A stretch of 20,465 nucleotides of DNA, from the IMG/VR virus record IMGVR_UViG_3300044825_001538, positions 1 through 20,465 of that record; one strand, 5' to 3'. This DNA is from a virus. The translations under genes and the position numbers were made by a program. Under the pieces are notes generated by a model. That model searched no databases and had not been told where the DNA came from. It worked only from the letters and a program-made list of their open reading frames with translations. Shown here one piece after another: positions 1 to 20,465 of this stretch (position 1 is the stretch's first letter; every line of letters begins with the position of its first letter).

Positions 1-485
1 TCTGTTGGGAACTGCCTCACGAAACCATCTCGACAGCTGATGGTCCGCAGCCGCGCATCATCTCGTCTGAGTACACGATGAGCATCGGCAAGAAGGCCAC
101 CCTGCGTGGCATCTTGGAGAGCTGGCGCGGTCGCCCGTTCACCAACGAGGAGCTGGGTGGCTTCGACCTGAAGAACATCATCGGGGCCAACTGCTTGCTC
201 AACATCGTCCACAAGCCGGGCAAGGCCGATCCGAGCCGCATCTATGCCCGCATTCAGGGCGTGATGCCGCTCACCAAGGGGATGGGTCCTGTACGTCCCT
301 CGATGGACACGGTGGTGTTCGACATTCCCGAATCGGGGCCGATTGTGGTGCCTGCTGCGGTGCCTGAGTGGATTCGGGCCAAGATTGATGCCTCTGATGA
401 GGTTCGTGCCCGCAGCAACAGTCGGGTGACGCAGGCCGAAACGGTGAACGACCAGATTAACGTTCTGGAAGACGCCCCGTTCTAA
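1..485 (+). CDS. Conserved phage protein, replication-module associated (5' partial)
   Basis: The reading frame is open from the first base of the window, so the N terminus lies outside and the first internal Met (base 78) is not a convincing start; about 160 residues are visible. The readable part contains the run ESWRGRPFTNEELGGFDL followed by a hydrophobic strand (CLLNIVHKPG), then MPLTKGMGP and a conserved-looking FDIPESG segment before PEWIRAKIDAS. From memory, this WRG...F..EEL..FDL...G..C.L.I.H pattern belongs to a common phage family of about 150-200 residues, usually unnamed and sometimes annotated as a single-stranded DNA-binding or recombination-associated protein. The alternating strands would fit an OB-like fold, but that is inference. 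Position ahead of exonuclease and helicase genes supports a DNA-metabolism role. It is followed after 10 bases by the lysozyme gene, whose Shine-Dalgarno begins at this stop codon. Confidence 0.6.
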   Translation, partial: CWELPHETISTADGPQPRIISSEYTMSIGKKATLRGILESWRGRPFTNEELGGFDLKNIIGANCLLNIVHKPGKADPSRIYARIQGVMPLTKGMGPVRPSMDTVVFDIPESGPIVVPAAVPEWIRAKIDASDEVRARSNSRVTQAETVNDQINVLEDAPF

Positions 486-489
486 GGAG
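484..489 (+). promoter_or_regulatory. Shine-Dalgarno for the TTG-started lysozyme gene
   Basis: AAGGAG lies six bases upstream of a TTG codon at 496 and overlaps the previous gene's TAA stop. No ATG or GTG in the frame fits the signal peptide better, so this site decides the start of the lysozyme gene. Confidence 0.7.
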
Positions 490-495
490 CTTCCC

Positions 496-921
496 TTGCG
501 CACGTTCCTAGCCTTCCTCCTTCTCTGCACGGCTTGTTCGGCTGCTCCCAATGCGGCGTTTTGGGTTGCGCTGCATCGGGTGGAGAGCGGAGGGAGGCTG
601 GGGCGTGTTTCTTGGGGCGAGCATCGTGGCCCGCTGCAAATCAGCAGGGCCTACTGGCAGGACAGTGGTGTGGGTGGGAGCTGGTCTGACTGCGACGACT
701 TGGAGAAGGCCAAGCTGGTGGTGGAGGGCTTTATGAAGCGCTACGTGCCAAAGGCTTGGGCCGAGGGTGATGTGCAGACGCTGGCGCGGGTGCACAAGGG
801 TGGTCCGAGGGGCCACAAGAAGGAAGGGACGCTGGCCTATGGGCGGCGTGTCGAAGCGATTGTCTATGAACACAATAAACAAACTGCTAGCGTGCTTTGG
901 GGTAAAGCTGGTGTCCGCTAA
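496..921 (+). CDS. Exported i-type (destabilase-like) lysozyme, probable endolysin
   Basis: 141 residues from a TTG start. Residues 1-17 form a short signal peptide (MRTFLAFLLLCTACSAA); C14 could be a lipid-attachment cysteine, but the -3 residue is not ideal. The body matches the invertebrate-type lysozyme pattern: RVESGG at 28-33 with E30 as candidate catalytic acid, GPLQISRAYWQD at 45-56 with D56 as second candidate, and LARVHKGGPRG near residue 97, all in family order. I-type lysozymes cleave the MurNAc-GlcNAc bond of peptidoglycan. The many disulphide cysteines of animal members are missing (only C62... region CDD and the signal-peptide cysteines remain), as expected for a distant bacterial or phage relative. 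A signal sequence implies Sec-assisted export, so it may not need a large-hole holin. It sits in the replication operon, far from the holin/spanin candidates near 19 kb. Family assignment is from motifs only. Confidence 0.75.
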   Translation: MRTFLAFLLLCTACSAAPNAAFWVALHRVESGGRLGRVSWGEHRGPLQISRAYWQDSGVGGSWSDCDDLEKAKLVVEGFMKRYVPKAWAEGDVQTLARVHKGGPRGHKKEGTLAYGRRVEAIVYEHNKQTASVLWGKAGVR

Positions 922-1078
922 GGACCACCACTCTAATTTCACACGGAAGGAGTGGCTTGAACGCGAGGAGGAGCTGATGCGCAGGTTGCACAACCAGCGC
1001 TGCCTCACCAACTACTACCGGAAGAAGAGCAACAAGCTGTCCGGCTATGTGGACAACTCCATTGAAGAGGCTTCCTGA
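866..1078 (+). CDS. Small basic hypothetical protein
   Basis: 70 residues from ATG 866, overlapping the end of the lysozyme gene by 56 bases in another frame. The sequence reads MNTINKLLACFGVKL, then a strongly charged helix (TRKEWLEREEELMRRLHNQR) and a basic YYRKKSNK tail. No family is recognised. The frame continues upstream to 767, but that part is a shadow of the lysozyme frame. GTG at 911 would give a 55-residue product that largely avoids the overlap, and the lack of a clear Shine-Dalgarno at either codon leaves the start uncertain. The hydrophobic N terminus (LLACFGVKL) is too short for a membrane helix. Confidence 0.5.
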   Translation: MNTINKLLACFGVKLVSAKDHHSNFTRKEWLEREEELMRRLHNQRCLTNYYRKKSNKLSGYVDNSIEEAS

Positions 1079-1115
1079 CACGGAAGCAGAGCAAACGACA
1101 CAACTTCCTAGTCAA

Positions 1116-1301
1116 ATGGACAACATCTTCGACTTAATTGCCGCCATCTTCAGCTTGGTTTGTCTGGCAGGCTCCTGCTTCTTCTTGGGCAAGGTGCTTG
1201 GTAGGCAGGAGATTCAGACGGATGCCGTCAAGAATGGCGCCGCCGTCTGGGTGATAAACAATGAGGGCAACCCCAGCCTGCACTGGAGGGTGAACAAGTG
1301 A
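1116..1301 (+). CDS. Small single-pass membrane protein
   Basis: 61 residues from ATG 1116. Residues about 4-28 (IFDLIAAIFSLVCLAGSCFF) form one hydrophobic segment followed by GKVLGRQE, suggesting an N-out/C-in single-pass inner-membrane protein. The C-terminal half has the shape DAVKNGAAVWVINNEG...LHWRVNK. A similar A(V/I)..G.A.WV.....G...F.W ending occurs, from memory, in many unnamed phage proteins with one N-terminal helix. An upstream extension to 1047 exists but reads through the previous gene. Its stop overlaps the GTG start of the next gene. It could be an extra holin or anti-holin given the lysozyme just upstream, but nothing in the sequence proves this. Confidence 0.6.
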   Translation: MDNIFDLIAAIFSLVCLAGSCFFLGKVLGRQEIQTDAVKNGAAVWVINNEGNPSLHWRVNK

Positions 1302-1756
1302 GCAACCACAACATCAGAGTGGATGCCATCGGGCTGGCTGCCGAGGTGGTGGAGTTGCGCAACGAGATTGCCCGCCTCAAGAACCAGACCAACTGGGTGT
1401 GTTCCTGCGGCGGCACCGACTGCGAAGGCCAGAAGGAGAACGCCGATTTGCGCAACACGCTTGATGCCGTCATTTGGGCAGACGAGCGGGCTGTTGAGCT
1501 ATGGAGAGCCGCGCACCCCGGCAAGGAGCTGGTCATCCCCGACCGGGCCAAGCTAGTGGAGTGGCTGCTGGAACAGAACGCCGCGCTGCGCAAGGACAAG
1601 GATCGGCTGGATTGGATTTTCTGGCCTTCACGCTCACGCAAGGCGCGTACCCGGATGCTCAAGCTAATTGGAACTCCCGGTTATCGGGGGGACGAAGGCG
1701 GAATGCTGGCTTGGCGTGACGCCATCGACGCTGCAATGAAGGAGGCGCAGCCGTGA
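1298..1756 (+). CDS. Hypothetical phage protein with coiled coil and Cys cluster
   Basis: 152 residues from a GTG start at 1298, with GGAGG at 1285-1289 giving an 8-base spacing; the GTGA overlap with the previous stop supports this start. Residues 12-30 form a heptad-like helix (LAAEVVELRNEIARLKNQ). A small CSCGGTDC cluster follows at 35-42 (C35, C37, C42), then a second helical part ending in LVEWLLEQNAALRKDKDRL. The C terminus (RLDWIF ... AWRDAIDAAMKE) resembles the tail of many small phage proteins of the form LDWL...REAIDAAM; this is memory-based. A metal-binding role for the three cysteines is possible but unproven. Function unknown. Confidence 0.65.
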   Translation: MSNHNIRVDAIGLAAEVVELRNEIARLKNQTNWVCSCGGTDCEGQKENADLRNTLDAVIWADERAVELWRAAHPGKELVIPDRAKLVEWLLEQNAALRKDKDRLDWIFWPSRSRKARTRMLKLIGTPGYRGDEGGMLAWRDAIDAAMKEAQP

Positions 1757-1965
1757 GCTATCCGATGCATCCCAAGGCCGACCAGATTGCCCAGATGCTC
1801 CTTGAGATGAGGCAATGGAAGGAGATTCAGAACGAGCTGGGCGTATCCGACCGTGCCGTTCGCAGGCAGTCCAGACGGCTGGAGATGATCCGCGTGCCAG
1901 TGACGCGGGAGGAGCGCCATATGCTGGCCGACCGCCGCAAGGTGACCCACAAATACGTGCCGTGA
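1753..1965 (+). CDS. Small HTH-like protein (paralogue of the gene at 2415)
   Basis: 70 residues from GTG 1753, with AAGGAGG at 1739-1745 seven bases upstream and a GTGA overlap with the preceding gene. The middle (IAQMLLEMRQWKEIQNELGV, then SDRAVRRQSRRLEM) reads as a helix-turn-helix of the kind found in small DNA-binding regulators: helix 2 WKEIQNELGV, turn SDRA, recognition helix VRRQSRRLEM. The tail is basic. The opening MSYP.H.K and the later RV.(V/L)T.EE...RK are shared with the gene at 2415, so the two are duplicates. A role in phage gene control is inferred. Confidence 0.65.
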   Translation: MSYPMHPKADQIAQMLLEMRQWKEIQNELGVSDRAVRRQSRRLEMIRVPVTREERHMLADRRKVTHKYVP

Positions 1966-2186
1966 AAGCCACCCTTGAGTTCCAACTACCGGAGGAGGAG
2001 CGAGACTTCCACATCGCCAGCCGCGCTCAAATGCTTGAGCGAGTGATTGGTGACATCGACGCCTGCCTCCGCTCCCATCTCAAATATGGGCCAGCAAACG
2101 ACATCAAAACCGCCGACGACCTAGCCAACTGGCTGCGTCAGGAGTACACGATCCCGGCCCTCAACCAAATCAACACCGATGCCTAA
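1962..2186 (+). CDS. Short conserved phage protein (LPEE..DF family)
   Basis: 74 residues from GTG 1962, which overlaps the previous stop as GTGA. The frame is open upstream to 1815, but that segment overlies the HTH gene and has no coding character of its own. The sequence KATLEFQLPEEERDFHIAS ... VIGDIDACLRSHLKYG resembles a widespread unnamed phage family with the layout LPEE..(E/D)F....A......L.D.D..LR...KY. The product is soluble and acidic, with two predicted helices. Function unknown; its place among small regulatory-looking genes gives no firm clue. Confidence 0.65.
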   Translation: MKATLEFQLPEEERDFHIASRAQMLERVIGDIDACLRSHLKYGPANDIKTADDLANWLRQEYTIPALNQINTDA

Positions 2187-2418
2187 GACACCCAAACGAC
2201 GCTACCGAAAGCTCAACACGCCTGAGATGATGGCGTCCATCGACAGGATGGTGGCGGAAGGCTACCGCGCACTGCACATCGCACAGGAGCTGCACCTCGA
2301 TCCTAAGATGGTTGCGGAGCGGGCCAACCGGAAAGGCTACCTCTTGGCCTACGTGAAGAAGGACGAGCACTCCGCCCTCATCAAGGCCCGGATGGAGGCG
2401 AGGGCAGCGGTCCAATGA
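2179..2418 (+). CDS. Small HTH-like DNA-binding protein
   Basis: 79 residues from ATG 2179, overlapping the previous gene by 8 bases. A basic N terminus (MPKTPKRRYRKL) is followed by a likely helix-turn-helix: MVAEGYRALHIAQELHLDPK and then MVAERANRKGY. The pattern '(A)EGY.A..IA..L.L....V..RA...G' is typical of small phage and bacterial DNA-binding proteins in which helix 2 is 'HIAQELHL' and the recognition helix follows the DPK turn. It sits between the two paralogous MSYP genes and stops by ATGA overlap with the second. A transcriptional role is inferred only. Confidence 0.6.
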   Translation: MPKTPKRRYRKLNTPEMMASIDRMVAEGYRALHIAQELHLDPKMVAERANRKGYLLAYVKKDEHSALIKARMEARAAVQ

Positions 2419-2633
2419 GCTACCCGCGACACAAGAAGACGACTGCAATCCGCCAGATGCTGATGGCAATGGACCCACTCAAGCTCATCGAGCTGGAGCT
2501 GGGCGTGAACCACGAACGCATCCACAAGCAGGTGCAGGAAATGAAACTGTCACGGGTCTACCTCACGGCGGAGGAGAAGGCCCTTATCCAAAATAATAGG
2601 AAAAAACTCTTGCAATCAGGACATCAATGGTAG
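2415..2633 (+). CDS. Small HTH-like protein (paralogue of the gene at 1753)
   Basis: 72 residues from ATG 2415 (ATGA overlap with the upstream gene). Aligned without large gaps to the gene at 1753 it shares MSYP.H.K...I.QML..M...K.I..ELGV, an aligned Gln in the second helix, RV..T.EE and RK; identity is roughly a third by eye. The likely helix-turn-helix is LKLIELELGV / NHER / IHKQVQEMKL. The last part becomes A-rich at the DNA level (aataataggaaaaaac near 2592-2607), unlike the GC-rich surroundings. A 19-base gap follows before the exonuclease gene. It is probably a regulator or DNA-binding accessory protein born by duplication. Confidence 0.65.
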   Translation: MSYPRHKKTTAIRQMLMAMDPLKLIELELGVNHERIHKQVQEMKLSRVYLTAEEKALIQNNRKKLLQSGHQW

Positions 2634-2652
2634 CACCCTGACCACGACACAT

Positions 2653-3432
2653 ATGAGCGAACACTGGTACACCCGCGACGGGAAACCGTCCCACACCCGC
2701 ATCAGCAAGTCGGGCGTCGTCCGCAGCACCACGCTGCGTGACGCCCGCTTAGAGCACCTGCTCCCCTCGGTGAGCAGCGTTCTCAATGAGGCAGCGGCCC
2801 CTGAATTGGACCGCTGGAAGACGAACAAGATTTTGGAAGCGTGCTACAGCAGCGGCGATCCGCTGGCCGTGGCCCCTACGCTCTCCGAGTATTGCACGAT
2901 CATCCGTGAGAAGGCGGACAAGGAGATGGAGCAGGCCCAAATCTTTGGCACTGCATTCCACAAAGCGATGGAGGGCGAGGTGCCGATTGGGATGGAGCTT
3001 CTGGTTGAATCAACCAACAAGGAGTTGGAGAAGCTAAAGCAGGGCGGCCTCCATTTGGTGGAGCAGGAGGTGTCGGTGGCCAATGTCCACCTTGGCTATG
3101 CTGGCACCACGGACTACGCCTTTGAGGAGCACTCGCTCCCCGGCATCCTCGATTTCAAAACGTGCAAAACTGAGAAGGACGAGCCAATCCCGTTCAAGCG
3201 GTCCCACTGCGCCCAGATTGCGGCGTACATAATGGCACGCTGGAGCCCGTGGGCCAAGGACCTCCCCGAATGCACCGGCATCAACGTCTACGTCAGCAAG
3301 ACGGAGCCGGGGCGCGTGGATGTGGTGCGTTACGACCACGATCAGCTTGCTGATTCGTGGGAGTGGTTCAATGCCTGCCTCATCCTGTGGCGGATGCGTC
3401 GCAACTACGATCCCCGGGAGCTTGGATCGTGA
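2653..3432 (+). CDS. PD-(D/E)XK exonuclease, RecB/Cas4-like
   Basis: 259 residues from ATG 2653. The N terminus carries LPSVSSVLNEAAAPELDRW (37-55), a known opening of phage PD-(D/E)XK exonucleases. Catalytic-core motifs follow in order: GTAFHKAME at 99-107 (H103, E107), GTTDY with D154, GILDFKTCK with D167 and K169, and Q188...Y192 (QIAAY), the RecB-family QxxxY motif. Such enzymes degrade DNA ends with Mg2+ and in phages usually prepare single strands for recombination, as lambda Exo does, or degrade host DNA. Length (about 260) fits the stand-alone phage members. No iron-sulphur cysteine set of Cas4 type is visible. It overlaps the helicase start by four bases (GTGA), so the two are probably co-translated. 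No dedicated annealing protein is recognised nearby; the truncated gene at 1-485 could fill that role. Confidence 0.85.
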   Translation: MSEHWYTRDGKPSHTRISKSGVVRSTTLRDARLEHLLPSVSSVLNEAAAPELDRWKTNKILEACYSSGDPLAVAPTLSEYCTIIREKADKEMEQAQIFGTAFHKAMEGEVPIGMELLVESTNKELEKLKQGGLHLVEQEVSVANVHLGYAGTTDYAFEEHSLPGILDFKTCKTEKDEPIPFKRSHCAQIAAYIMARWSPWAKDLPECTGINVYVSKTEPGRVDVVRYDHDQLADSWEWFNACLILWRMRRNYDPRELGS

Positions 3433-4766
3433 GCGCACCCATCCTTCCACATTCCGAGGAGGGTGAGCGCATCATCCTCTCCTGCATCCTGCTGGATGGC
3501 CCTGCCTCTCTGGCCAAGGCCATCGATGGCAAGATTGAGGAGGAGGTATTCTACCTCCCTCAGCACCGCCGCCTCTGGCGGGCCATCCAATGGCAGCACA
3601 AGAACAGCCAGCCGCTAGAGCTGCACGCTCTGGTGGAGGAGCTGAAGAAGTGCAACAAGCTGCACGAAGTGGGTGGCTTGGCTGGGCTGGTGGAGATGAC
3701 GCAGGCTGCCTGCACCACGGCCCAGCTTGGCCACTGGATTGACGTTGTGCGCCAGCACTACGTGATGCGGGAGCTGCACGCCACCTGCTCTCGGATGGCC
3801 GAGAAGACGCTGGCCCACAGCGGCAGCGTCGAGGGGTTTGTGATGGAGGTGAACAACCTCATCACGAAGCACCACGAAGGCCAGAAGCAGGAGACGCTGG
3901 CCGACGCAGCCGACTCCGCCATCGCACTGGTGGAGCGGGTGCAGGCTGGCACGTACACGGACAAGGACATCGGGATGAGCTTCCCGTGGGCCGATTGGGA
4001 CCGCCGCTTCGGCCTAGCCAAGCCCGGTGAGCTCATCATCATCTCGGCCCGTCCCGGTATGGGCAAGAGTAGCTGCTGCCGCCAGATTGCCCAGCACTGG
4101 GCCAAGGATGGCAAGGTGCTGCTGTTCAGCCGCGAGATGCCCACCAAGCAGATGGCGCCGCTGTTTGCCCAGACGGAGTGCGGCATCTCGTACAGGGACA
4201 TCCTGTCGGGGCGCCTATCCACCTCCTATCTGGAGACGTTCAAGCAGGAGCTGGCCAAGGTCCGCAGCCTACAGGTGGCGGTGTATGACCAAGACCGCAC
4301 CCTGTCGCACATCGTGACGCGGGCCAAGGCCTTCGCTCAGGTGAGCAAGCCCAAGGCGATCTGCGTTGACTACCTCCAGCGGTATGACGCCCAGCAGGAG
4401 CGCGGGGAAACCCGCGATATGGCCCTTGGCCGCTTCACAATGGCGATGAAGGACCTAGCCATTGAGCTGTCCGTCCCCGTCATCCTGCTTGCTCAGCTAG
4501 GGCGCAGCGTGGAGCGCGAGAACCGCGAGCCCCGCCTGTCCGACCTCCGCGAGAGTGGCAACTTGGAACAGGACGCCGACCGCGTAATTTTCCTCAACGC
4601 TCCCGACCATCGGCCTGACGGCACGATGCAAACCATCACCGACAACGACCTGCGCTTCATCTACGTGGACGCCATCCAAGCGAAGGGTCGCAGCGACGGC
4701 ACGGGCCGTTGCGGGATGATGTTCGACCGCCCCATCACCAAGCTCCTTCCCTACGCACCTGTATGA
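3429..4766 (+). CDS. dnaB: Replicative DNA helicase, DnaB family
   Basis: 445 residues from GTG 3429, which overlaps the exonuclease stop; the upstream extension to 3357 is shadow. Residues 1-150 give the DnaB N-terminal helical domain (EEGERIILSCILLDG, FYLPQHRRLWRAI). The RecA-type core has Walker A SARPGMGKSS at 206-215 (K213), the H1a glutamate in SREM (E236), Walker B ICVDYLQ at 311-317 (D314), the LAQLGRSVE motif near 354, the DLRESGNLEQDAD motif at 372-384 and KGRSDGTG near 419, corresponding to the arginine-finger loop. DnaB hexamers unwind the fork 5'-3' on the lagging strand. Length and motif order are normal. No primase, loader or DNA polymerase gene is in the window, so either the phage borrows host factors or those genes lie upstream. 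Confidence 0.96.
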   Translation: MSAPILPHSEEGERIILSCILLDGPASLAKAIDGKIEEEVFYLPQHRRLWRAIQWQHKNSQPLELHALVEELKKCNKLHEVGGLAGLVEMTQAACTTAQLGHWIDVVRQHYVMRELHATCSRMAEKTLAHSGSVEGFVMEVNNLITKHHEGQKQETLADAADSAIALVERVQAGTYTDKDIGMSFPWADWDRRFGLAKPGELIIISARPGMGKSSCCRQIAQHWAKDGKVLLFSREMPTKQMAPLFAQTECGISYRDILSGRLSTSYLETFKQELAKVRSLQVAVYDQDRTLSHIVTRAKAFAQVSKPKAICVDYLQRYDAQQERGETRDMALGRFTMAMKDLAIELSVPVILLAQLGRSVERENREPRLSDLRESGNLEQDADRVIFLNAPDHRPDGTMQTITDNDLRFIYVDAIQAKGRSDGTGRCGMMFDRPITKLLPYAPV

Positions 4767-5065
4767 ACACCTCACCCAACTTCTCTGAGGCCTCGTTAGA
4801 CCTCATCCTTGGCGACCGCAACGAAGCCTACGGCAATCCCCGCGAAGACTTTGAGGGCATTGCTATGATGTGGTCTGGCCTCATCAACGCAAAGCTGCAC
4901 CAAAGCATCACCGCCGAGGATGTGGCCCGTATGATGGTGGCCCTCAAGCTGCGCCGGGACAGCCACCGCCAGAAGGACGACAACCTCATCGACGCTCACG
5001 GCTACCTCCATTGCCTGAGTTGGATTCAGAAGGGGCTGCGCCCCGCGAGAGGAGATGAGGTATGA
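4763..5065 (+). CDS. DUF6378-like phage protein
   Basis: 100 residues from ATG 4763, joined to the helicase by an ATGA overlap. The body reads LGDRNEAYGNPREDFEGIA, then MWSGL, ITAEDVARMMVALKLRR, DDNLIDAHGYL. This corresponds to the phage pattern R...YG.P..N...IA..W.......I....VA..M...K..R......D...D..GY recalled as DUF6378. The conserved acidic DDN..D pair at the end of a helical bundle recalls all-alpha NTP pyrophosphohydrolases (MazG-like), but the full EExxExxD set is not visible, so nucleotide hydrolysis is only a possibility. Co-translation with the helicase suggests a replication or nucleotide role. Confidence 0.75.
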   Translation: MNTSPNFSEASLDLILGDRNEAYGNPREDFEGIAMMWSGLINAKLHQSITAEDVARMMVALKLRRDSHRQKDDNLIDAHGYLHCLSWIQKGLRPARGDEV

Positions 5066-5421
5066 GCCTAGGATATGATGTGTCGGAGACGATGACCTCT
5101 ATCCGCCACATACTAGCCAAGCATACGAAGGGCTGGAAGTGGGATGAGATTCCTGATGTCGTCGTGAAGTCCAAGAAGGAGCCATCCCGCAACCAGATTG
5201 AGAAGCCTGATCTTCTCTATCAGGTGAGCAAGGCGCTGGACGAAGGCATCCACCTGAAGGAGGCGTCCCATCGCTTCGACATCTCCTGCACTACAGCGTC
5301 TATGATTAAGCGCCGCCTTGAGCGTTACGAGGGTATGCCTCACGACCGTGACGGCATCCTCCTGTGGTACGTTGAGAGGAAGAATGCCAAAGCCAAAGCC
5401 AGAACTGACGCGAGCAGGTAG
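5062..5421 (+). CDS. HTH-like protein with basic tail
   Basis: 119 residues from ATG 5062. AGGAG at 5050-5054 is seven bases upstream, and the start overlaps the previous stop (ATGA). A likely helix-turn-helix lies in the second half: VSKALDEGIHLKEASHRFDI followed by SCTTASMIKRRLERYEG. This places the recognition helix at 'TASMIKRRLER' after the conserved-looking 'A..F.IS' turn. The C terminus is Lys/Arg/Ala-rich (ERKNAKAKARTD), suited to nucleic-acid contact. The last 38 bases overlap the HNH gene. No name can be given; a regulator or DNA-packaging accessory role would both fit. Confidence 0.6.
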   Translation: MSLGYDVSETMTSIRHILAKHTKGWKWDEIPDVVVKSKKEPSRNQIEKPDLLYQVSKALDEGIHLKEASHRFDISCTTASMIKRRLERYEGMPHDRDGILLWYVERKNAKAKARTDASR

Positions 5422-5920
5422 ACAATGGACGGAGGCACGCTACTGGTCCTTTTTAAGAAGCGCTTTAAGGCGTGCCTTCGTTCGTTGGCCTCCAAACTAC
5501 CAAGCCAGAAACGCAGGGCGCAGGCCCTACGTCGGGCCAGTGAAGCAGCAGAAATGGGAGTACGAATGCGCAATCTGTCACCAGTGGTTCCAGCAGAAGC
5601 AAACACAGTTGGACCACGTAAACCCGTGTGGGCAGTTGAGAAGCATCTCCGACCTGCCGGGGTTCGTGGAGAGGTTGTTCTGCGAGAGGGACGGGCTAAG
5701 GGTGCTGTGCAAGCCGTGCCACAAGGAGGTGACCGATGCAGCTAGATATGTTCACGGAGGTGAAGGAGCCGCCCCCGGAGTGGGTGAAGGCGCCACCGGA
5801 ACCCCCAAAGCCAAAGCCCGGAAGCCTCGCCCACCTAAGCAAGTGCGGATGGGAGACGTTCCGCCCGAAGCCTTACACGGTGGTCAAGGAAGGCCCGTAC
5901 AAGTGTTGGATTTCCAATGA
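5384..5920 (+). CDS. HNH endonuclease with an overprinted C-terminal tail
   Basis: 178 residues from ATG 5384. The frame is open upstream to 5318, but that part overlies the HTH gene. The nuclease core spans residues 57-117: a zinc pair C62-x2-C65 (CAIC), the catalytic LDHVNPCG (D77-H78), and a second zinc pair with the last histidine, CKPCHKEVT (C109, C112, H113). HNH enzymes of this small phage type nick or cut DNA and often assist packaging or homing. The arginine-rich N terminus (SALRRAFVRW) could bind DNA. After residue 117 the protein becomes a low-complexity Gly/Ala/Pro/Lys tail of about 60 residues, exactly where another gene with a strong Shine-Dalgarno starts in a second frame. The tail may be a passive by-product of that gene. 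Confidence 0.85.
   Translation: MPKPKPELTRAGRQWTEARYWSFLRSALRRAFVRWPPNYQARNAGRRPYVGPVKQQKWEYECAICHQWFQQKQTQLDHVNPCGQLRSISDLPGFVERLFCERDGLRVLCKPCHKEVTDAARYVHGGEGAAPGVGEGATGTPKAKARKPRPPKQVRMGDVPPEALHGGQGRPVQVLDFQ
5723..5732 (+). promoter_or_regulatory. Strong Shine-Dalgarno inside the HNH gene
   Basis: AAGGAGGTGA matches the anti-Shine-Dalgarno nearly in full; its AGGAGG core is six bases from ATG 5736. It is among the best ribosome-binding sites in the window and argues that the small overlapping gene is translated. It also codes for the last conserved HNH residues (KEVT). Confidence 0.7.
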
Positions 5921-5927
5921 AAACTGA
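5736..5927 (+). CDS. Small proline-rich protein overlapping the HNH tail
   Basis: 63 residues from ATG 5736. The sequence starts MQLDMFTEVKEPPPEWVKAP, passes through a Pro/Lys hinge (PPEPPKPKPGS) and ends in a compact CGWETFRPKPYTVVKEG part with YKCW before the stop. Codons in this frame favour G/C in the third position, as in neighbouring genes, whereas the overlapping HNH frame gives low-complexity protein here. This frame is therefore probably the selected one over the 185 shared bases. The two cysteines (CGW, KCW) might pair or bind metal. No family is recognised. The next gene begins 11 bases before this stop. Confidence 0.65.
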   Translation: MQLDMFTEVKEPPPEWVKAPPEPPKPKPGSLAHLSKCGWETFRPKPYTVVKEGPYKCWISNEN

Positions 5928-6804
5928 CGGCAAGCACGTTAACCACTCGGTGGACATACCCTGCAAGCTGGGGGAGCCGATCAAAATCATCCCCTTTGGG
6001 GACGTCCACCGCGATTCGGAGATGCACGCCCACTCTACGTGGCAGGACTTTCTGGCCTACGCCAAGGCCCAGAAGAACGCCTACTTCCTAGGGATGGGCG
6101 ACTACACTGACGGCGTATCAACCTCAGAACGGGCCATCCTCAATGCTTCCAACTTACATTCCACCACCAAGATATCTATGGGAGATATGTACAAGGGTGT
6201 TGTCCGCACTCTTGCTAACGAGCTTGGCTTTATGCGCCATCGCTGCATTGGCCTGCTTGGCGGTAATCACTATTTTGACTACAATGATGGCCAGAATACT
6301 GACCACCTGCTTGCGGCGGCTCTTGGAACTAGGCACCTCGGCGTCCACTCGTTCATCCTAGTTCGGCTGATGATTAACGAGCGCAAGACCACATCGGGCC
6401 GCCCCCGTTATGTGCCGCTGTGGATTCAGGCGCACCACGGGCTGGGCGGCGGAGCCTTGGCCGGGAGCCAGTACAACCCGATCCAGAAGATGGGGCATAT
6501 GTTCCCACGGGCTCACATCAATTTGATGGGACATAGTCACGGCAAGGGCTGCAATGGTGGCAATGTGGTGCTGGTGCCGCGTGAGATGAGTGAGTTCCCG
6601 TTCTTCACCATCGACGAACAGCCGAGCTGGCAGGGCCGAACGGGGAGCTTCCTGAAGGTGTACGAGGACGGCAAGTCCTCCTACAACGTGGACGCCTGCC
6701 GTTCCCCCAATGCGCTGGGCTGGATTGAGTTTGAGGTGACGCCCAAGCGGGTGCAGGATGGCAAGCGCGACCTGCTTACGCTATCCATCCGTGGCACTAG
6801 CTGA
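5917..6804 (+). CDS. Calcineurin-like metallophosphoesterase
   Basis: 295 residues from ATG 5917. The dimetal motifs are present in order: GDVH at 28-31, GMGDYTDG with D62, GGNHYFD with N117-H118, QAHHG with H173-H174, and GHSHGK with H206 and H208. These are the five signatures of the calcineurin-like fold, which hydrolyses phosphoester bonds (nucleic acids, nucleotides or phosphoproteins). No Mre11 accessory domain is seen, so this is a compact stand-alone phage enzyme; the substrate is unknown. A short stretch around 6120-6300 falls to about 49% G+C against roughly 60% nearby, suggesting recombination or a different codon history inside the gene. It is flanked by overlaps on both sides and belongs to the same operon as the HNH and helicase genes. 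Confidence 0.88.
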   Translation: MKTDGKHVNHSVDIPCKLGEPIKIIPFGDVHRDSEMHAHSTWQDFLAYAKAQKNAYFLGMGDYTDGVSTSERAILNASNLHSTTKISMGDMYKGVVRTLANELGFMRHRCIGLLGGNHYFDYNDGQNTDHLLAAALGTRHLGVHSFILVRLMINERKTTSGRPRYVPLWIQAHHGLGGGALAGSQYNPIQKMGHMFPRAHINLMGHSHGKGCNGGNVVLVPREMSEFPFFTIDEQPSWQGRTGSFLKVYEDGKSSYNVDACRSPNALGWIEFEVTPKRVQDGKRDLLTLSIRGTS

Positions 6805-7072
6805 TTCAGACCCAAAGCCCCTGTTCAGATTTAGGGGCAACCTGCGCAAGGTGTTGCTTGAGGAGGGCTGGCTCGACAACCCTAAGTTCTTCGACCCGGG
6901 GCGCAGCCGCTTTGCCATCATCTGCCGCAGCATGAATGGCCACATCGAGTGCGAGATTGTCGGAGGCCCCCAGTGCGGACTCAACTTCCTGCTGCCACTC
7001 GACTTCGACAACGACGGGGTGTTCTGGCAGTTCTGCGAACGGGTTAAGGACCCATCCTCCTTTTCTGGTTAA
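6791..7072 (+). CDS. Hypothetical protein, last gene of the + strand arm
   Basis: 93 residues from GTG 6791, overlapping the phosphoesterase end by 14 bases; the frame reaches back to ATG 6758, but that part is inside the previous gene. The protein has alternating basic and hydrophobic parts (FRFRGNLRKVLLEEGWLDN), then RFAIICRSMNGHIECEIVGG and LPLDFDNDGVFWQFCERV. It looks like a small alpha/beta fold with three cysteines, of no family I recognise. Its last 29 bases run into the 3' end of the opposing virion operon, so the two operons end tail-to-tail. Confidence 0.6.
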   Translation: MALADSDPKPLFRFRGNLRKVLLEEGWLDNPKFFDPGRSRFAIICRSMNGHIECEIVGGPQCGLNFLLPLDFDNDGVFWQFCERVKDPSSFSG

Positions 7073-10000
7073 TCTCAAGCATCTGGTAGTACACCTCCGG
7101 GGTGATGACACCAGCGGTTAAGAGCTTGTTTCTCAGCTTCTCGGCCACCTGAGCGCCTCCGGGCTGCTTGGCGTAGTTGACCATGATGGAGTCAATGGCC
7201 TTGGCTCGCTCGCCATCTGCAACACCCAGACCACCTAGGATGCTGACGTATGGGTCATTGCCCTTGGCCTCGGCCTTGATGTACTCCTTCCAAGTGTCCT
7301 GAAGGCGACGGGCCTTGAACGGATCGTTGGAAGCCTGAGCCATTAGTGTGGACAGGGCGTTCTTGCGCTTGGCCGGGTCGGACATGAGCTCCTCCACAAT
7401 CTCAGTGGGCGAGCGCTCAAGACCGCGGGGCATCTCGGAGGTGTGCCCGAAGGCGGCGGAGGCGATGAGCCGCGCCGGGACGCCAGCCTCCCTGAACGCC
7501 TTGACGATTTCCTTGTCCCCAAACCTGCCGGTCTTCTGGCCTATGGCCTGAAGGTCCATGAAGATTTGAGAGAGTGCCTTCTGGCCTTCCGCGTAGCCAG
7601 CGGCCCGGGAGCGATAGATCGACTCCTCGTCGATGTCGTTGTAGGCCCCCGTCTCGTTGTTCACCTTGTCCTTCAGGATGCGGCGGTAACCGGCAAGGTC
7701 GCCCATCATCGGAGTGATGGCATCCCGGATGCGGGCCTCCGCCAGCTTCAGGGGATCGTAGGTTTGGGCGCGGTAGCCGAACAGGCGCTTGGTGCTGTCC
7801 TCAAAGTTGTAAACGGCACCCAGCTTGGACACCTCCCCGCGTGCGGCCTTCTCCACTCGGCTCAAGGTGCCGGTGACAAACTGAGGCATGAATGCGCGAG
7901 TGACGAAGCGCTCAAGGAGGGCTACGTCATCCCGGCGTTCGGTGATAGGAACCTTTGTGCCGTAGTAGGTGTTGGTGATGAACTCCACCGCAGGGGTGGC
8001 AAGGGGGCCTAGGTCATCACCGATGAACATGGTCTTCATGTACGGCAGGGGGTTCCTGCCGTTCAGGCCCTCGTTCAGGGCCGCCATCGCATTGGCGTAG
8101 GGGGCCAGATAGTTGACGGGCGTGAACGTGATGTTCCCGTCCTTGGTGAGGCCGATGATGTTGGCCTTGTTGCGGTCGAAGGAGGGAAGGAGGTTGTTCA
8201 CCCGCTTCGCCGTCTCCTCGTCCGTGCCCAGCGCACGACTGCCCCACACGGCAAGCCCAGCCGTGGCGGCTGCCACACTGGCCATGGAGAGCGCCCGGGC
8301 CGCGCCAGCCTTCACCATCTCGGGGTTGCCGGATGCCAGCAGCTTGGCCGCATAGCGTGCCTGATTCACAGTGGTGCGCATCACCTCAAACTCAAAGGCA
8401 CCAAAGGCATTGGCCACCGTCAGGGCGGAAGCCTGCCGGTAGCGCCTCGGGATGAGCTCATAGGTGGGGAACTGGTCATTCGTGAGGCGGGCAGCTTCCT
8501 TCTTCAGCTCCATCTCCTCCGCCTTGCTGAACACCTTCCCGGGCTGGAAGCTCTTCAGCTCATCCAGATTGGACTTGTAGATGCCATACCTGACAGCCGT
8601 GTCAGGGAAGCCGTACACTTTGGAGAACTTCTCCAGCAGTTGGGCGCCCTTGTTCTCCTTGGCCGACATCTTCAGGAACGTTTCAAGCTCCTGAACGTCA
8701 GCGCCGCCGCGCATGATGCCCAGCGACTTGAGCTCCCGCATCTCGCGGGCTAGCTTGATTCGGGCATCGGCCCCAAGTTGACCGCCGCGCCATCCCAGAT
8801 CGAACAGGGTTTTGCGGGCACCGTCGATCAGGTTGATCGGGTTGGCCTTGAAGGAGGATGCGGCAAGGGCAAGGTTGCCCACCACCTGCGGGGCGATGGC
8901 CTCGGCAAGATTGCCCACGGTCTTCATGGCCTTGGAGAATGAACCAACGGCCATCCAGTTGCGGGCCACAGCCCCGTCGCCAATCAGATTGGGGGAGAGG
9001 ATTTCTTTGTATGCATCCGCCCACACCTGTGGAACGTACAGGTCTTTCAGGGATCGATGCAAAACGGGGGCGTCGCCCTCGACCAAGCGCACATAACCGC
9101 CTGCTGCGGGAGGAGCATCCAGCCCAATGCCGCTGGTCTTGAGGAACTGGGCCAACTGCCGGTCGTGCTCCTCGGTGATGACCAGACGGGACTGGGCCTT
9201 GAGGGTTTGGGTCACCCGCCTGCCGGGGTCCATCACCTCGCCAAGCCACTTCCGTCCGGCATCAGACAGGTCGCCCTTCGACATCAGGGCCGAGCTGGCA
9301 ATCCCGGCCCCACCACCCGGGATGCTTCCACTGCCTACATAGGCCACATCGTCCAGCATTCTGGCCATGATGGCATCGGCCTGCTTCTCCGCCTCCGCCT
9401 TGGCCACACCATCCTTGGTGATGCCCGTAATCAATTCATCCCGGTAGGCTTGCCGGTCGGCTGGAACGTCGAAGTCCACGTAGCGCTTGGCCTTGGGGTC
9501 GTGCGCTGCATAGGCCGTGCGGATGTAGGACGCACGATTGTTGTCGATGGCCTTCCGTAGGTCTGGGGCCAGATGCGGATAGAGCTGAAGGATGGCGTCG
9601 GTGTTCTCGTCGCGCAGGCGGAAGAACTCATCCATGTACGTCTGCATGTCCGACGACAGAATCGTCTTGTTGGCCCTGCCGTCCATGACACTGAGCACCT
9701 TGGCCGTCATGGCAGCGGGGTCACTGGAACTGGCGATCTCCTTGTTGATCCAGTTGCCAATACGGGCAGCCTGATCCTCGGTGGCCTTTAGCTTGTTCTG
9801 CATTTCCATCACTTGCAGAACCACCTCCTTCTTTGCCACTTGCTCCGGTCCGGCCACCACTAGCCGAGCCCTGTCCTTGTTGATCCTTTGGGCCAAGGAT
9901 GGGATGTGCGTGGCTCCGTAGGCCCCGAGCCCGTACAAGGCCGCCTTCACAAACGGGTCCTTCTCGCCCTGTTCCTGAGCGTCGTTGTAGACGTATGCCG

Positions 10001-12052: not shown

Positions 12053-14410
12053 TTAACCCGGCGGGCCTCCGTAGCGGAACCCAGAACCCGGGGCCTGATA
12101 GGGGGTTCCTCCACGGGCCAGATAGGGCGGGGTTCCGGTGCTAGTGGGGGTTTGTCCGCCGAAGTTCATCATACCAGCCAGATAGGGCAGCGACTGAGCG
12201 AAGCTGCCAGCCATACTGGCCGTAGCCCCGGCACGGGCACCTGCCATACTGGCGGCGCCGCCAGCCACCGCAGCACCATATCCGGCCTGATTGGCCTGAT
12301 TGCCAAGGGCGATGTTGACGCCCGTGTCAGGATTGAAGAGGCGAGGCCCGGTGTCACGCGAGAGGTCGAGGCCAGCCCCATATCCGGTGAAGCCCAGAGG
12401 AATGGCCGCAGCATTCTGGCCAATGCCAGCCAGATTGATGGCGGTCGGGGTGATGTTGCCGAGAGTGGCAGCAAGACGTTCGGCGTAAGAACGGTCGGCA
12501 TTGAGCATATTCTGCTCCATGCCCGTCGTGGCGTTGAGGCGGTTGAACCGCGCAGTGAGCTCATCCAGACCAAACTGGCGGTTGGCAAGCTGGGCCTGAA
12601 GATTTTGCTGCGACCCAAGCTGGGAAATATTGAAGCCCATCTGCTGATTCGCCAAGGCTGCCTGAAGGTTGGCCGCTTGGTTGAGCCTCTGGGCATCCTG
12701 AGCAGCTTGGACATTGAACTGACCAGTCTGCATTCCGGCCTGCTGATTGGCGAGGGCGGCCTGCAAGTTGGCCGCCTGATTGAGCCGCGCCAGCTCGGTG
12801 GCATTGGAGATGTTAAACTGCCCAGCCTGCATCCCAGCAGCCTGATTTGCCAACGCAAACTGGTTTCCAGCCGCCTGATTGGCCTGCTGCACCGCAAGCT
12901 GATTGCGGGCGTTGATTTCCGCAGCCGACAGACCCGCTTGCTGATTAGCCAGCGCAAACTGGTTCTGCGCCGCCATATTGGCTTGGGCAATCGCCATCTG
13001 ATTGCCGATGTTGAACCGGCCAGCTTCCATCCCCGCCTGCTGATTGGCAAGGGCAGCCTGCAATCCGGTTTGCTGATTGGCAAGTGCCGCCCGCAGCATC
13101 GCGTCCTGATTGGCCTGCGAAGCCTGCAACCCGGTCTGCTGATTGGCCTGTGCCGCACGCAGGGCAGCATCCACGTTGAACGTCCCAGCCTGTAGCCCCG
13201 TAGCCACATTGGCCTGCTGACGGGCAATATCCGCCCGCAACACATCGGTGGCCAAGCTCTGGCCCGTCTGCTGGGCACCCAGAAGCTGGGCATTAATCTG
13301 TTGAGCAGCCGCAATGTCCTGCATCTGGCGCTCACGCGAGGCTCCAGCACGGGCCAAAGCCTCACCAGTGACGGCAGAGATGTCCTCCAAGCGACCCCTT
13401 GAGGCAGAGCGTTCCCGTGCCCCTTGTGTGGCCGCCCGGGCCTCCTCCGCCGTAATCTGACCCGGCGTCATTGCCATCCCCAAACCTTGGGCCTGAAGGG
13501 CCTGCGAGAGGGGGGAAAGCTGCTGGTTGCGAAGGGCCTGCTGATAAAGCGACTGACCTAGGGCTCCCGCCCCCACCTCACCGGCCTGCACTTGGCCTGC
13601 GGCAATGCGCTCGGAGGCAATGCGTTCAGCCGCCACCCGTTCAGCCGCCACCCGCTCGGGGGTAAGTTGACCCACCGATCCGAGCAGATTGGCACTCACC
13701 CGCTCCGGGCTGATGGCATCCATCGGCCCCATCATCATCGCACTCACCTGTTGTGGGGTGAGCGTTCCGGTGGGGCCAATTTGATTGGCAGAAATCTGCT
13801 GCGCGGTAAGACTGCTTGGTGCGCCAATTTGGTTGGCCGATACATTGGCTGGCGCGTTGATCGCGGGAGCCGTGATTGTTTGTCCGGTCCCCGGCTGCAT
13901 CGCCAAGTCGCCCATCGCGTTCAGGTAGCCGCTCACCTGACGGCCACCGAGGCTTTCCATCTGCGCAACGGACCGGGCGAATGCCGGGTTGGCCGCCAAA
14001 TACGCAGCTGTGGCTTCCGGGCCATACGACTTGAGCTGGTCCAGAACGTATTCGGTGTTCTGGGTGGCAAGGCGCTGGTTGAGCTCCGCCATCCGGTCGG
14101 CGGACATACTCACAAAATCCAAAGCGCCACGTGATCCACCGGTGCCGATCAGGCCAGCCTGAAGGTCGGCGGCATTCAGTTCCATGTATCCGGGACGGAA
14201 CTGGCCTTCCGCGCCCATGATCGTGTTCTGAAGGTCTACATTGCTAATGCTGTTGATGTAGTCCTGCATCGACTGCCCGACGTTAATCGGGGTAGGCCGA
14301 TTGGCGGCAGCGGCGTCCGCAGCTGTACGGGCAGCGCTCTTCGACGCATTGGCGCCAATCAGTGCCGACCCGATGCCCCCAACCGCAATGGCTGCTGCAA
14401 TGCCACTCAT
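12053..14410 (-). CDS. Repeat-rich virion protein (785 aa) with 11-residue array
   Basis: 785 residues from the ATG at 14410, which overlaps the cupin gene stop (ATGA). Order of parts: a short Gly/Ala-rich hydrophobic N terminus (IAAAIAVGGIGSALIGA, 4-20); a mixed helical region to about 170; four 16-residue repeats (190-253); six 5-residue repeats (254-283); helices rich in Ala/Gln/Arg (284-399); twenty 11-residue repeats (400-619); and a Gly/Ala-rich C-terminal part with MAGARAGATASMAG and YLARGGTPYQ. No enzymatic motif is visible. Similar Asn/Gln/Ala-rich proteins occur, from memory, before internal-protein genes in environmental podoviruses, without known function. Position favours an ejected or tail-interior protein. 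The strong helical periodicity suggests a long rod or a membrane-lying helix. Confidence 0.65.
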   Translation of the reverse strand: MSGIAAAIAVGGIGSALIGANASKSAARTAADAAAANRPTPINVGQSMQDYINSISNVDLQNTIMGAEGQFRPGYMELNAADLQAGLIGTGGSRGALDFVSMSADRMAELNQRLATQNTEYVLDQLKSYGPEATAAYLAANPAFARSVAQMESLGGRQVSGYLNAMGDLAMQPGTGQTITAPAINAPANVSANQIGAPSSLTAQQISANQIGPTGTLTPQQVSAMMMGPMDAISPERVSANLLGSVGQLTPERVAAERVAAERIASERIAAGQVQAGEVGAGALGQSLYQQALRNQQLSPLSQALQAQGLGMAMTPGQITAEEARAATQGARERSASRGRLEDISAVTGEALARAGASRERQMQDIAAAQQINAQLLGAQQTGQSLATDVLRADIARQQANVATGLQAGTFNVDAALRAAQANQQTGLQASQANQDAMLRAALANQQTGLQAALANQQAGMEAGRFNIGNQMAIAQANMAAQNQFALANQQAGLSAAEINARNQLAVQQANQAAGNQFALANQAAGMQAGQFNISNATELARLNQAANLQAALANQQAGMQTGQFNVQAAQDAQRLNQAANLQAALANQQMGFNISQLGSQQNLQAQLANRQFGLDELTARFNRLNATTGMEQNMLNADRSYAERLAATLGNITPTAINLAGIGQNAAAIPLGFTGYGAGLDLSRDTGPRLFNPDTGVNIALGNQANQAGYGAAVAGGAASMAGARAGATASMAGSFAQSLPYLAGMMNFGGQTPTSTGTPPYLARGGTPYQAPGSGFRYGGPPG
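12554..13213 (-). repeat. Twenty tandem 33-bp/11-residue repeats
   Basis: Within the 785-residue protein, residues 400-619 divide without a gap or slip into 20 units of 11. Typical units are ANQQTGLQAAL and ANQQAGMQTGQ. Position 2 is Asn in 19 of 20 units (the exception is LGSQQNLQAQL), and position 7 is Leu, Met or Phe in 16 of 20. From unit 5 to unit 19 (12587-13081) every third unit opens FN, IN or LG in place of AN or LN, giving a 33-residue super-repeat. DNA copies have diverged, so this is an old, selected array. Eleven-residue periodicity is the hallmark of alpha-11/3 helices. Confidence 0.9.
13562..13651 (-). repeat. Six 5-residue repeats
   Basis: Directly after the 16-residue repeats, residues 254-283 read VAAER, VAAER, IASER, IAAGQ, VQAGE, VGAGA: a branched aliphatic residue at every fifth position. 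The first two 15-base copies are identical, so this part may be younger than the 11-residue array. The pattern is not the classic A(D/N)LxX pentapeptide repeat. Confidence 0.8.
13652..13843 (-). repeat. Four tandem 16-residue repeats
   Basis: Residues 190-253 of the 785-residue protein form four in-register 16-residue units: VSANQIGAPSSLTAQQ, ISANQIGPTGTLTPQQ, VSAMMMGPMDAISPER and VSANLLGSVGQLTPER. Shared positions are (V/I)SA at 1-3, Gly at 7, (L/I)(T/S)(A/P) at 12-14 and QQ or ER at 15-16. The period and the Gly turn suggest short beta or beta-turn-helix rungs. Confidence 0.85.
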
Positions 14411-19474: not shown

Positions 19475-19839
19475 TACGGGGCCGGAATCTCCACCCATTG
19501 CTGGATGGACTCATCCCACCCATATGCTTTGCCGTCGGTCGGGTAGGGGATGGGAGCGTCCCAATCGAGCGTGATCTCGTTGAAAACCCACGAAAGATAG
19601 GGCTGCGGACGGATGAAGGCATCGCGCACGCTGTCGTAGCGGTAGCCAATTCCAGCGAAGCGAACGCGGATGTTGTTGTTGTACGATGTCTGGAGCCAGA
19701 CGCCCCCGAAGAGATTGGTGCAGAACGCAACGCCCACGGCCTCGCTTTCCTGTCCGTTGGCGTCGAGGCAGTCGTTGTTGGAGACGACGATTACCTGCCG
19801 CACGATCCCGTTGCCGTCGATTTGCGCGAAGTGGGCCAT
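19474..19839 (-). CDS. Conserved virion-associated phage protein (121 aa)
   Basis: 121 residues from the ATG at 19839, overlapping the stop of the glycine-rich gene (TAATG). It begins MAHFAQIDGNGIVRQVIVVS and contains GVAFCTNLFGGVWLQTSYNN, then RFAGIGYRYDSVRDAFIRPQ, PYLSWVFNE and YGWDESIQQWVEI. This 'HFA.I...VV..V..V.N...GI.FC...G..W.QTSYN......AGIGY.YD...DAFI.P.P..SW' pattern is, from memory, very widespread in cyanophages and pelagiphages, where it lies among tail or structural genes. Molecular function is unknown. The fold is probably beta-rich. It is useful as a marker for an aquatic-type phage. Confidence 0.75.
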   Translation of the reverse strand: MAHFAQIDGNGIVRQVIVVSNNDCLDANGQESEAVGVAFCTNLFGGVWLQTSYNNNIRVRFAGIGYRYDSVRDAFIRPQPYLSWVFNEITLDWDAPIPYPTDGKAYGWDESIQQWVEIPAP

Positions 19840-20465
19840 TAGTAGGTGATGCTTCCGCTAGAGGTGAAGGTGTAGATGTAGTAATTGCCGGACGTACTGC
19901 TGGATGGGCTGCCTGTGGTTGAGGCGGCTGGGACCAAAGCGCGCACAATTACGATGCCCGATCCTCCGCTGGCTCCTGCGGAAATGCCACTGGCACTCGT
20001 TACGCCACCACCACCTCCGCCACCTCCTGTACCTGATCCACCAGCGGTTCCGGCGTCTCCTGTGTTTGATGCTCCGCCACCACCGCCACTACCACCAGAG
20101 CCAGCATTTCCGGTGTAGCTGCGTTTGTCGATGGCGCCCCCGCCTCCCCCGCCTCTAGTTGCTGCCGTTCCGGTGATCGATGAAGAAATGCCAGCGCCTC
20201 CATCTGGAGCTACGCCGCTTGCGGCTTTAACGCCGTTTGCCGAAGCGCCGCCACCGCCACCGCCAGCCGTCGCATTTCCAGACCCAGTTCCGGCGGCACC
20301 ATTACTGCCTTGGCTTGCAGTGCCAGAACCACCGGCAACCGCCTCAACACCGCCAGCGCCGCCGCCACTTCCGCCGTTTCCGCCTGCCGTATTCCACGTT
20401 CCGCCGCGACCACCGCCAGATGATGTGATGGTTCCAAAAACGGAGTCATTGCCAATCGTACCGAC
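19839..20465 (-). CDS. Glycine-rich adhesin-like protein (5' partial)
   Basis: The frame is open on the - strand from the window edge down to a TAA at 19839-19841, so at least 208 residues with the N terminus outside; no Met start occurs inside, which makes it easy to miss. It begins near VGTIGNDSVFGTITSSGGGR and continues with long Gly/Ser/Ala/Asn stretches (GGNGGSGGGAGG, AGGGGGASANG, GGGGGGAIDKRSYTGN). It then has GGSGIVIVRAL, a linker, and a final SGNYYIYTFTSSGSITY. The GSG(I/V)V(I/V).R ending matches that of the gene at 17804, and the final motif matches that gene's N-terminal one. It is probably an adhesin or fibre tip with polyglycine packing. Confidence 0.75.
   Translation of the reverse strand, partial: VGTIGNDSVFGTITSSGGGRGGTWNTAGGNGGSGGGAGGVEAVAGGSGTASQGSNGAAGTGSGNATAGGGGGGASANGVKAASGVAPDGGAGISSSITGTAATRGGGGGGAIDKRSYTGNAGSGGSGGGGGASNTGDAGTAGGSGTGGGGGGGGVTSASGISAGASGGSGIVIVRALVPAASTTGSPSSSTSGNYYIYTFTSSGSITY

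Follow-up and report, generated by a model that had tools for sequence, protein, structure and literature searches.

The window, meaning the whole stretch of DNA that was analysed, is the entire 20,465-base virus record. Its minus strand carries, in this order, the genes P0007, P0006, P0005, P0004, P0001, P0003 and P0002. P0007 (17804-18529) matched Pfam Gly_rich_2, and a very Gly-rich open frame of similar composition leaves the record end at 19839-20465 (minus strand). P0006 (15624-17804, 726 aa) is a tail or head-closure-like protein (phrog_3287, phrog_578) with 37% identity to that of Phage C75C1, and P0005 (14927-15622, 231 aa) matched phrog_5906. P0004 (14407-14934) is cupin-like with a match to a short-tail-fibre PHROG; it lies just upstream of P0001 and overlaps the P0001 start by 4 bases. 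P0001 (12053-14410, 785 aa) carries a repeat array and takes the gene-order position of T7 gp14 and P22 gp7. It is followed by P0003 (10670-12049, 459 aa) in the gp15/gp20 position and by P0002 (7044-10652, 1202 aa) in the gp16 position, the latter being a phrog_22602 virion structural protein with a Gly-rich N-terminal segment.

The order P0006 - P0005 - P0004 - P0001 - P0003 - P0002 resembles the order 10 - ... - 7 - 20 - 16 of phage P22, and in order and sizes it also follows the rule that a gp14-like gene stands before gp15 and a larger gp16 (PMC8954989). Neither P0002 nor P0003 had a Pfam match, and hence no muralytic domain by Pfam. In other viruses with array genes, an SLT transglycosylase was encoded by the second gene downstream of the array gene (L197) or by the next one (L178), and a Phage_lysozyme2 domain was found in the second gene downstream in L165. 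In L195 and L145, visual comparison showed N-termini like that of P0003 in genes downstream of the array gene. Gene order and neighbours suggest that P0001 acts in DNA ejection, and its place in an ejection-type virion cassette lends support to that part of the earlier note.

P0001 is composed of several distinct segments, all encoded on the minus strand. Residues 1-36 (14303-14410) form a Gly/Ala-rich hydrophobic N-terminus that is missing from several homologues, and residues 37-178 (13877-14302) a helical region of the N-terminal part that is likewise conserved in the 302-aa orthologues without an array. A second repeat-rich region at residues 180-283 (13562-13873), variable in length among homologues, contains four 16-residue units (xNxIG..LTPxxV; ANQIG..LTPQQVS type) and then 5-residue VAAER-like repeats. 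The most conserved segment, a leading helix, covers residues 299-396 (13223-13516) with the motifs SPLSQALQ ... EEARAATQGARE ... INAQLLGAQQ ... LATDVLRADIA. The array occupies residues 400-619 (12554-13213), and the conserved C-terminal segment (FNPDTGVNIAL...AN..GYGA), which array-less orthologues have in common with P0001, residues 692-785 (12056-12337). P0001 had no Pfam match at all; the S74 domain in particular was found neither in P0001 nor in its 26 homologues by Pfam.

The array is composed of 20 units of 11 residues (hendecads) in an unbroken register. Position 2 is Asn in 19 of the 20 units and Gly in one, and position 7 is Leu, Met or Phe in 16 (eleven, four and one, respectively), so that the coordinates, unit number and residue counts of the earlier note were exact. 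When the array residues were shuffled, no single register held more than 10 Asn (mean 5.1). Autocorrelation over residues 400-619 gave z values of 14.2 at lag 33, 9.7 at lag 66, 9.5 at lag 22 and 7.1 at lag 11; the 33-residue super-repeat therefore exists. The units are almost uncharged, as had been noted, with 15 charged residues in 220 and a net charge of -1. Openings of the FN, IN or LG type occur in units 2, 7, 10, 13, 16 and 19; the proposed rule of one such opening in every third unit holds from unit 7 to unit 19, but not from unit 5. Four 33-residue triplets, each made of an FN/IN, an xN and an AN unit, lie at residues 466-597 (12620-13015). The 11-residue register runs on to the next conserved anchor, the distance between the anchors RQQxNV and DRxY being 241 residues (residues 397-637; 12500-13222).

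DNA identity among the array copies is merely 61-77%, and dS between the 99-bp copies is 0.7-1.7, a strong synonymous divergence. The array is therefore old, and neither a recent duplication nor an assembly artefact. Alternative long ORFs span the array at 12152-13195 (plus strand) and 12169-13365 (minus strand, other frame), a normal consequence of an in-frame repeat that has diverged. Among the homologues, the pattern at synonymous sites points to the 785-aa frame, which is under purifying selection there, over the alternative ORFs.

Searches of phage records by tblastn with P0001 and with residues 271-423 gave nothing useful, and neither did P0001 alone in viral-contig patterns, PHROGs, Pfam or PDB sequence searches. 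Homologues were reached through the neighbouring gene: P0006 aligned with Phage C75C1 led to 80 viral loci, nine of which hold P0001 homologues with phmmer E values of 1e-85 or better. A profile of these nine found further relatives, and 28 sequences remained after deduplication, the window included. Both anchors were found in 27 of them (the window and 26 homologues), 241 residues apart in the window and 120, 131 or 142 apart in the homologues, in each case 10 modulo 11. In L090, where the second anchor matched only with a widened pattern, the distance was again 131. A conserved FNI site inside the array divides it into two halves, which kept 3 and 7 modulo 11 in all 28 sequences. On a tree built from the part preceding the array, the pair of half-lengths requires at least eight changes and the total length five, always by whole units. 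The control distance from DR to FDPxAGIN in the same proteins was 51-54 residues, and its five changes were steps of 1-3 residues.

The strict 11-residue register thus extends to the 26 other homologues with both anchors. Changes in multiples of one or of three units, both considered in the earlier note, were both seen: single units distinguish relatives from one another, and the window exceeds most relatives by one single unit and three triplets of 33 residues, the latter being three of the four triplets at residues 466-597. The array is under purifying selection. Its dN/dS was 0.015-0.17 in nine pairs, similar to that of the flanking motif, and Asn was retained in 229 of 248 units. These values, the low DNA identity between copies and the finding of no out-of-register indel among the 27 sequences argue against a disordered linker shaped by neutral repeat slippage, in which whole-unit steps would be mere recombination between repeats. 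Unit number does vary between near-identical relatives (L017/L102 and L019/L096, one unit apart in each pair), as such slippage would have it, but we regard this explanation as highly improbable. Since unequal recombination also yields whole-unit steps, more weight falls on the absence of any surviving indel that breaks the register.

In other viruses the same slot holds a protein of about 300 aa (302 aa) without an array, which aligns with the window family on both flanks of the array (hhalign E 4e-37). In marine-type relatives (L060, L038, L049, L053 and L067) the protein in this slot has a period of 25 residues instead of 11. The 11-residue period expected of homologues is thus kept by the anchored relatives, but not by these distant orthologues; it is not essential to the slot, and the core function can do without the array. 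Repeats of 11 and 25 residues are both whole-turn helical repeats, with three and seven turns (11/3 and 25/7), so this exchange favours a helix over a beta-solenoid.

AlphaFold2, run on P0001 with 27 sequences, gave a mean pLDDT of 58 and a pTM of 0.25. The array was predicted to be helical, with pLDDT 80-88 over about residues 420-520; at this pTM, a helix call on an Ala/Gln/Leu-rich sequence is weak evidence. Helices were predicted at residues 341-408, 413-492, 496-530, 536-591 and 600-649, with no strand, and three of the four breaks (409-412, 493-495, 531-535 and 592-599) were at or beside FN units. The model of the array-less orthologue L027 (pLDDT 49.8) was too poor for use. Foldseek found no match in the PDB and none below 0.001 in BFVD, and P0001, its array and its profile matched no PDB sequence except a designed protein. 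From the prediction and the composition, the array is most likely helical, as the earlier note supposed; its picture of one very long straight helix fits less well with four predicted breaks and the low pTM. Breaks at several FN sites would permit hairpins, and the long helices might then form an intramolecular bundle around the portal in an internal core or packing protein, the length of which is set by head packing and not by a conduit. T7 gp14 itself is known in two forms, as an internal core and as a channel, between which it changes (PMC11784390). Nothing specific speaks against such a bundle, and the sequence fits it as well as it fits an ejection conduit, though we consider it rather unlikely.

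The hydrophobicity spectrum of the window array peaked at 163.5 degrees, matching the second harmonic expected for an 11/3 helix (163.6 degrees), with little power at the first helical harmonic (98 degrees). Power at 98 degrees was low in most relatives as well: the mean normalised powers for k = 1 to 5 over the 28 sequences were 0.78, 3.42, 1.84, 5.86 and 9.43, k = 3 (98 degrees) being the second lowest. Of four 25-residue sequences analysed, three had their top peak at 158.5-159 degrees, where the second harmonic of 25/7 is 158.4, and two of these three peaks were above the 95% shuffle level. The pattern is not universal. The fourth 25-residue sequence, L060, peaked at 115.5 degrees, L195 and L197 at 131 degrees and L219 at 98.5 degrees; L060, L195 and L197 fit neither helical harmonic.

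On a helix, a peak at 163.5 degrees means two opposite, weak hydrophobic faces and not one stripe. The hydrophobic stripe near 98 degrees per residue that marks a hendecad coiled coil or an amphipathic 11-mer was not found, and the spectrum disfavours both a one-stripe membrane helix and a canonical hendecad coiled coil in the window family. P0001 shares with right-handed hendecad coiled coils and with the 11-mers of apolipoproteins and synuclein a unit of 11 residues and three helical turns, but differs from them in having no such stripe and one conserved Asn per unit. The membrane-lying alpha-11/3 helix of the earlier note, in apolipoprotein or synuclein style, would agree with an 11-residue unit free of indels. 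The scarcity of charge, the richness in Gln and Asn and the near absence of 98-degree power make it very improbable. The helix could instead have a neighbour on either side, as the chains of a tube or a sheet do. In a helical-wheel model of a barrel, Gln at positions 4 and 8 would face the lumen for five or more chains, although this model is too crude to fix the chain number or the lumen face.

The 163.5-degree peak also prompted us to consider a beta-solenoid of 11-residue coils with an Asn ladder. A hydrophobicity alternation with a period of 2.2 and one Asn per unit would suit such a fold, and solenoids likewise change by whole coils. We set it aside as very improbable, since AlphaFold predicted no strand, the composition (Ala, Gln, Leu, Met, Glu and Arg 65%; Val, Ile, Thr and Phe 11%) is against it, and the period is 25 residues in some orthologues from this slot.

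The DNA pattern of ANQxxxLQAxLANQ occurred in at least 120 viral contigs, each with an ORF containing the pattern, and in bacterial and archaeal genomes in only eight stretches in 257 billion bases, at least four of which encode array proteins of this type. The similar arrays of these viral contigs had no match among PHROGs, Pfam families or isolates. Array family A5 joins the window family by profile (E 2.6e-41). Family A6 (GGSR type) aligned with it within the array only, homology outside being unsupported, so the module either moved or arose twice.

Two array-pattern proteins of bacterial genomes (L240 and L241) end in a Peptidase_S74 chaperone domain. The L241 protein (Enterovirga) matched phrog_4287, 'DNA ejection protein', the match being best over the S74 part at its C-terminus. 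Relatives of the L241 protein without an array occur in Sinorhizobium phage phiM5 and Ochrobactrum phage vB_OspP_OH, and the annotation of both names a tailspike or tail fibre domain. Some related proteins owe these names to the S74 domain. The phiM5 relative (gp27), an S74-bearing protein annotated as detected in virions, stands directly upstream of three internal virion proteins; it is kin to the Asn-hendecad protein of L241, but has no array and is tied to the window family only via array-bearing proteins.

These proteins bear on an external rod or fibre, in which the array would be the shaft (a parallel coiled coil) of a trimeric fibre associated with the tail, and the C-terminal domain, in some relatives, an assembly chaperone. 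The S74 ends, the tailspike and tail fibre annotations and the adjacency of the P0001 slot to the short-tail-fibre-like P0004 would all suit a fibre. The window protein itself, however, has neither S74 nor any other Pfam domain, its downstream genes are of the ejection type, a hydrophobic a/d/h core stripe at 98 degrees is missing, and the family of the S74-bearing protein (A6) is joined to the window family through the array alone. A fibre is therefore unlikely, in our opinion.

Among known systems, the DNA pilot tube protein H of phage phiX174 (PDB 4JPP) comes closest in kind, being a virion protein with a Gln/Asn-rich hendecad helical segment. The H tube has three hendecads, a lumen lined with amide and guanidinium groups and a length of 170 A (PMC7354561). 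The anchor span of most P0001 relatives is 120-142 residues, against 121 residues in the H tube. H has only three hendecads, followed by heptads, against 20 in the window; its hendecads are rich in charges and have a distinct hydrophobic stripe close to 100 degrees, and neither applies to the window array. H comes from an ssDNA microvirus, unlike P0001 of a dsDNA tailed phage, and PDB sequence searches gave no match between them. phiX174 was the sole phage case that searches of open-licence papers for hendecads returned.

T7 gp14 and P22 gp7 share with P0001 the position before gp15/gp20-like and gp16-like genes, the predicted helices and the virion cassette. Proteins of this type are 181-240 aa long in the phages of PMC8954989, against 785 aa for P0001, with no repeat array described and no detectable homology to it. 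By hhalign, A4 and A7 compared with P22 gp7, gp20 and gp16 and T7 gp14 and gp15 gave probabilities of at most 0.9%. The likeness is therefore one of position and not of membership. The gp72:gp73 channel of Pseudomonas phage DEV, a helical ejection tube of about 300 A beside a large ejected protein (PMC10925440), resembles P0001 by analogy only.

The array is genuine: a repeat module under strong constraint, with quantised length, in a virion protein of the ejection slot. It is most likely a length-adjustable part of the DNA conduit. The fuller reading, a length-variable helical module of a DNA-ejection-cassette protein that forms a multi-chain tube or bundle and so lengthens the conduit, appears to us plausible, if still short of probable. 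P0001 would be a virion protein, encoded in the gp14/gp7 slot of a DNA-ejection cassette of podovirus type, and each 11-residue unit would make three helical turns, rising 11 x 1.5 A = 16.5 A. As these are whole turns, units could be gained or lost without rotating the flanking parts. Several chains would associate laterally, in contact through two faces of weak hydrophobicity (positions 3/7/11 and 1/9); of the two polar faces, one would carry Asn 2 and the other Gln/Arg at 4 and 8. The resulting tube or bundle, possibly in contact with DNA, may extend the conduit from the phage tail to the host envelope, as the hendecads of phiX174 H do; the comparison is an analogy of working, and relatedness to H or to the T7/P22 family has no support. 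We might further speculate, with considerable doubt, that the array is a genetically tunable ruler, its unit number setting the length of a multi-chain ejection tube in 16.5 A steps; the dsDNA phages would then have evolved, independently, their own counterpart of the H tube, and it would be widespread among uncultured phages.

How short-tailed phages span envelopes of differing thickness is an open question. A module that changes length in whole helical units only, and that some orthologues lack or replace by a unit of 25 residues, offers a direct handle on it. The array is also a recognisable, unannotated mark of ejection-type genes in uncultured phages.

Phage C75C1 (L002, OQ984151), the nearest to the window by P0006 and P0002, has in the P0001 slot a gene for a 2769-aa protein (38751-39484 and 1-7576 of its record). 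A hendecad array was not found in this protein, which contains, close to its N-terminus, a nearly perfect duplication of 75 residues, and also a repeat of 66-67 residues. The array protein of L195 (3069-6692, plus strand; 1208 aa) has an array that spans 34 units in register, and its C-terminus resembles a Hint domain, below the Pfam cut-off. Other array relatives end in CWVAREVYG-type or S74 domains, and C-terminal processing-type domains seem to recur on array proteins. The L195 counterpart of residues 180-283 contains many GYNAALAQSQ-type repeats, matching Pfam Decapeptide below the curated cut-off.
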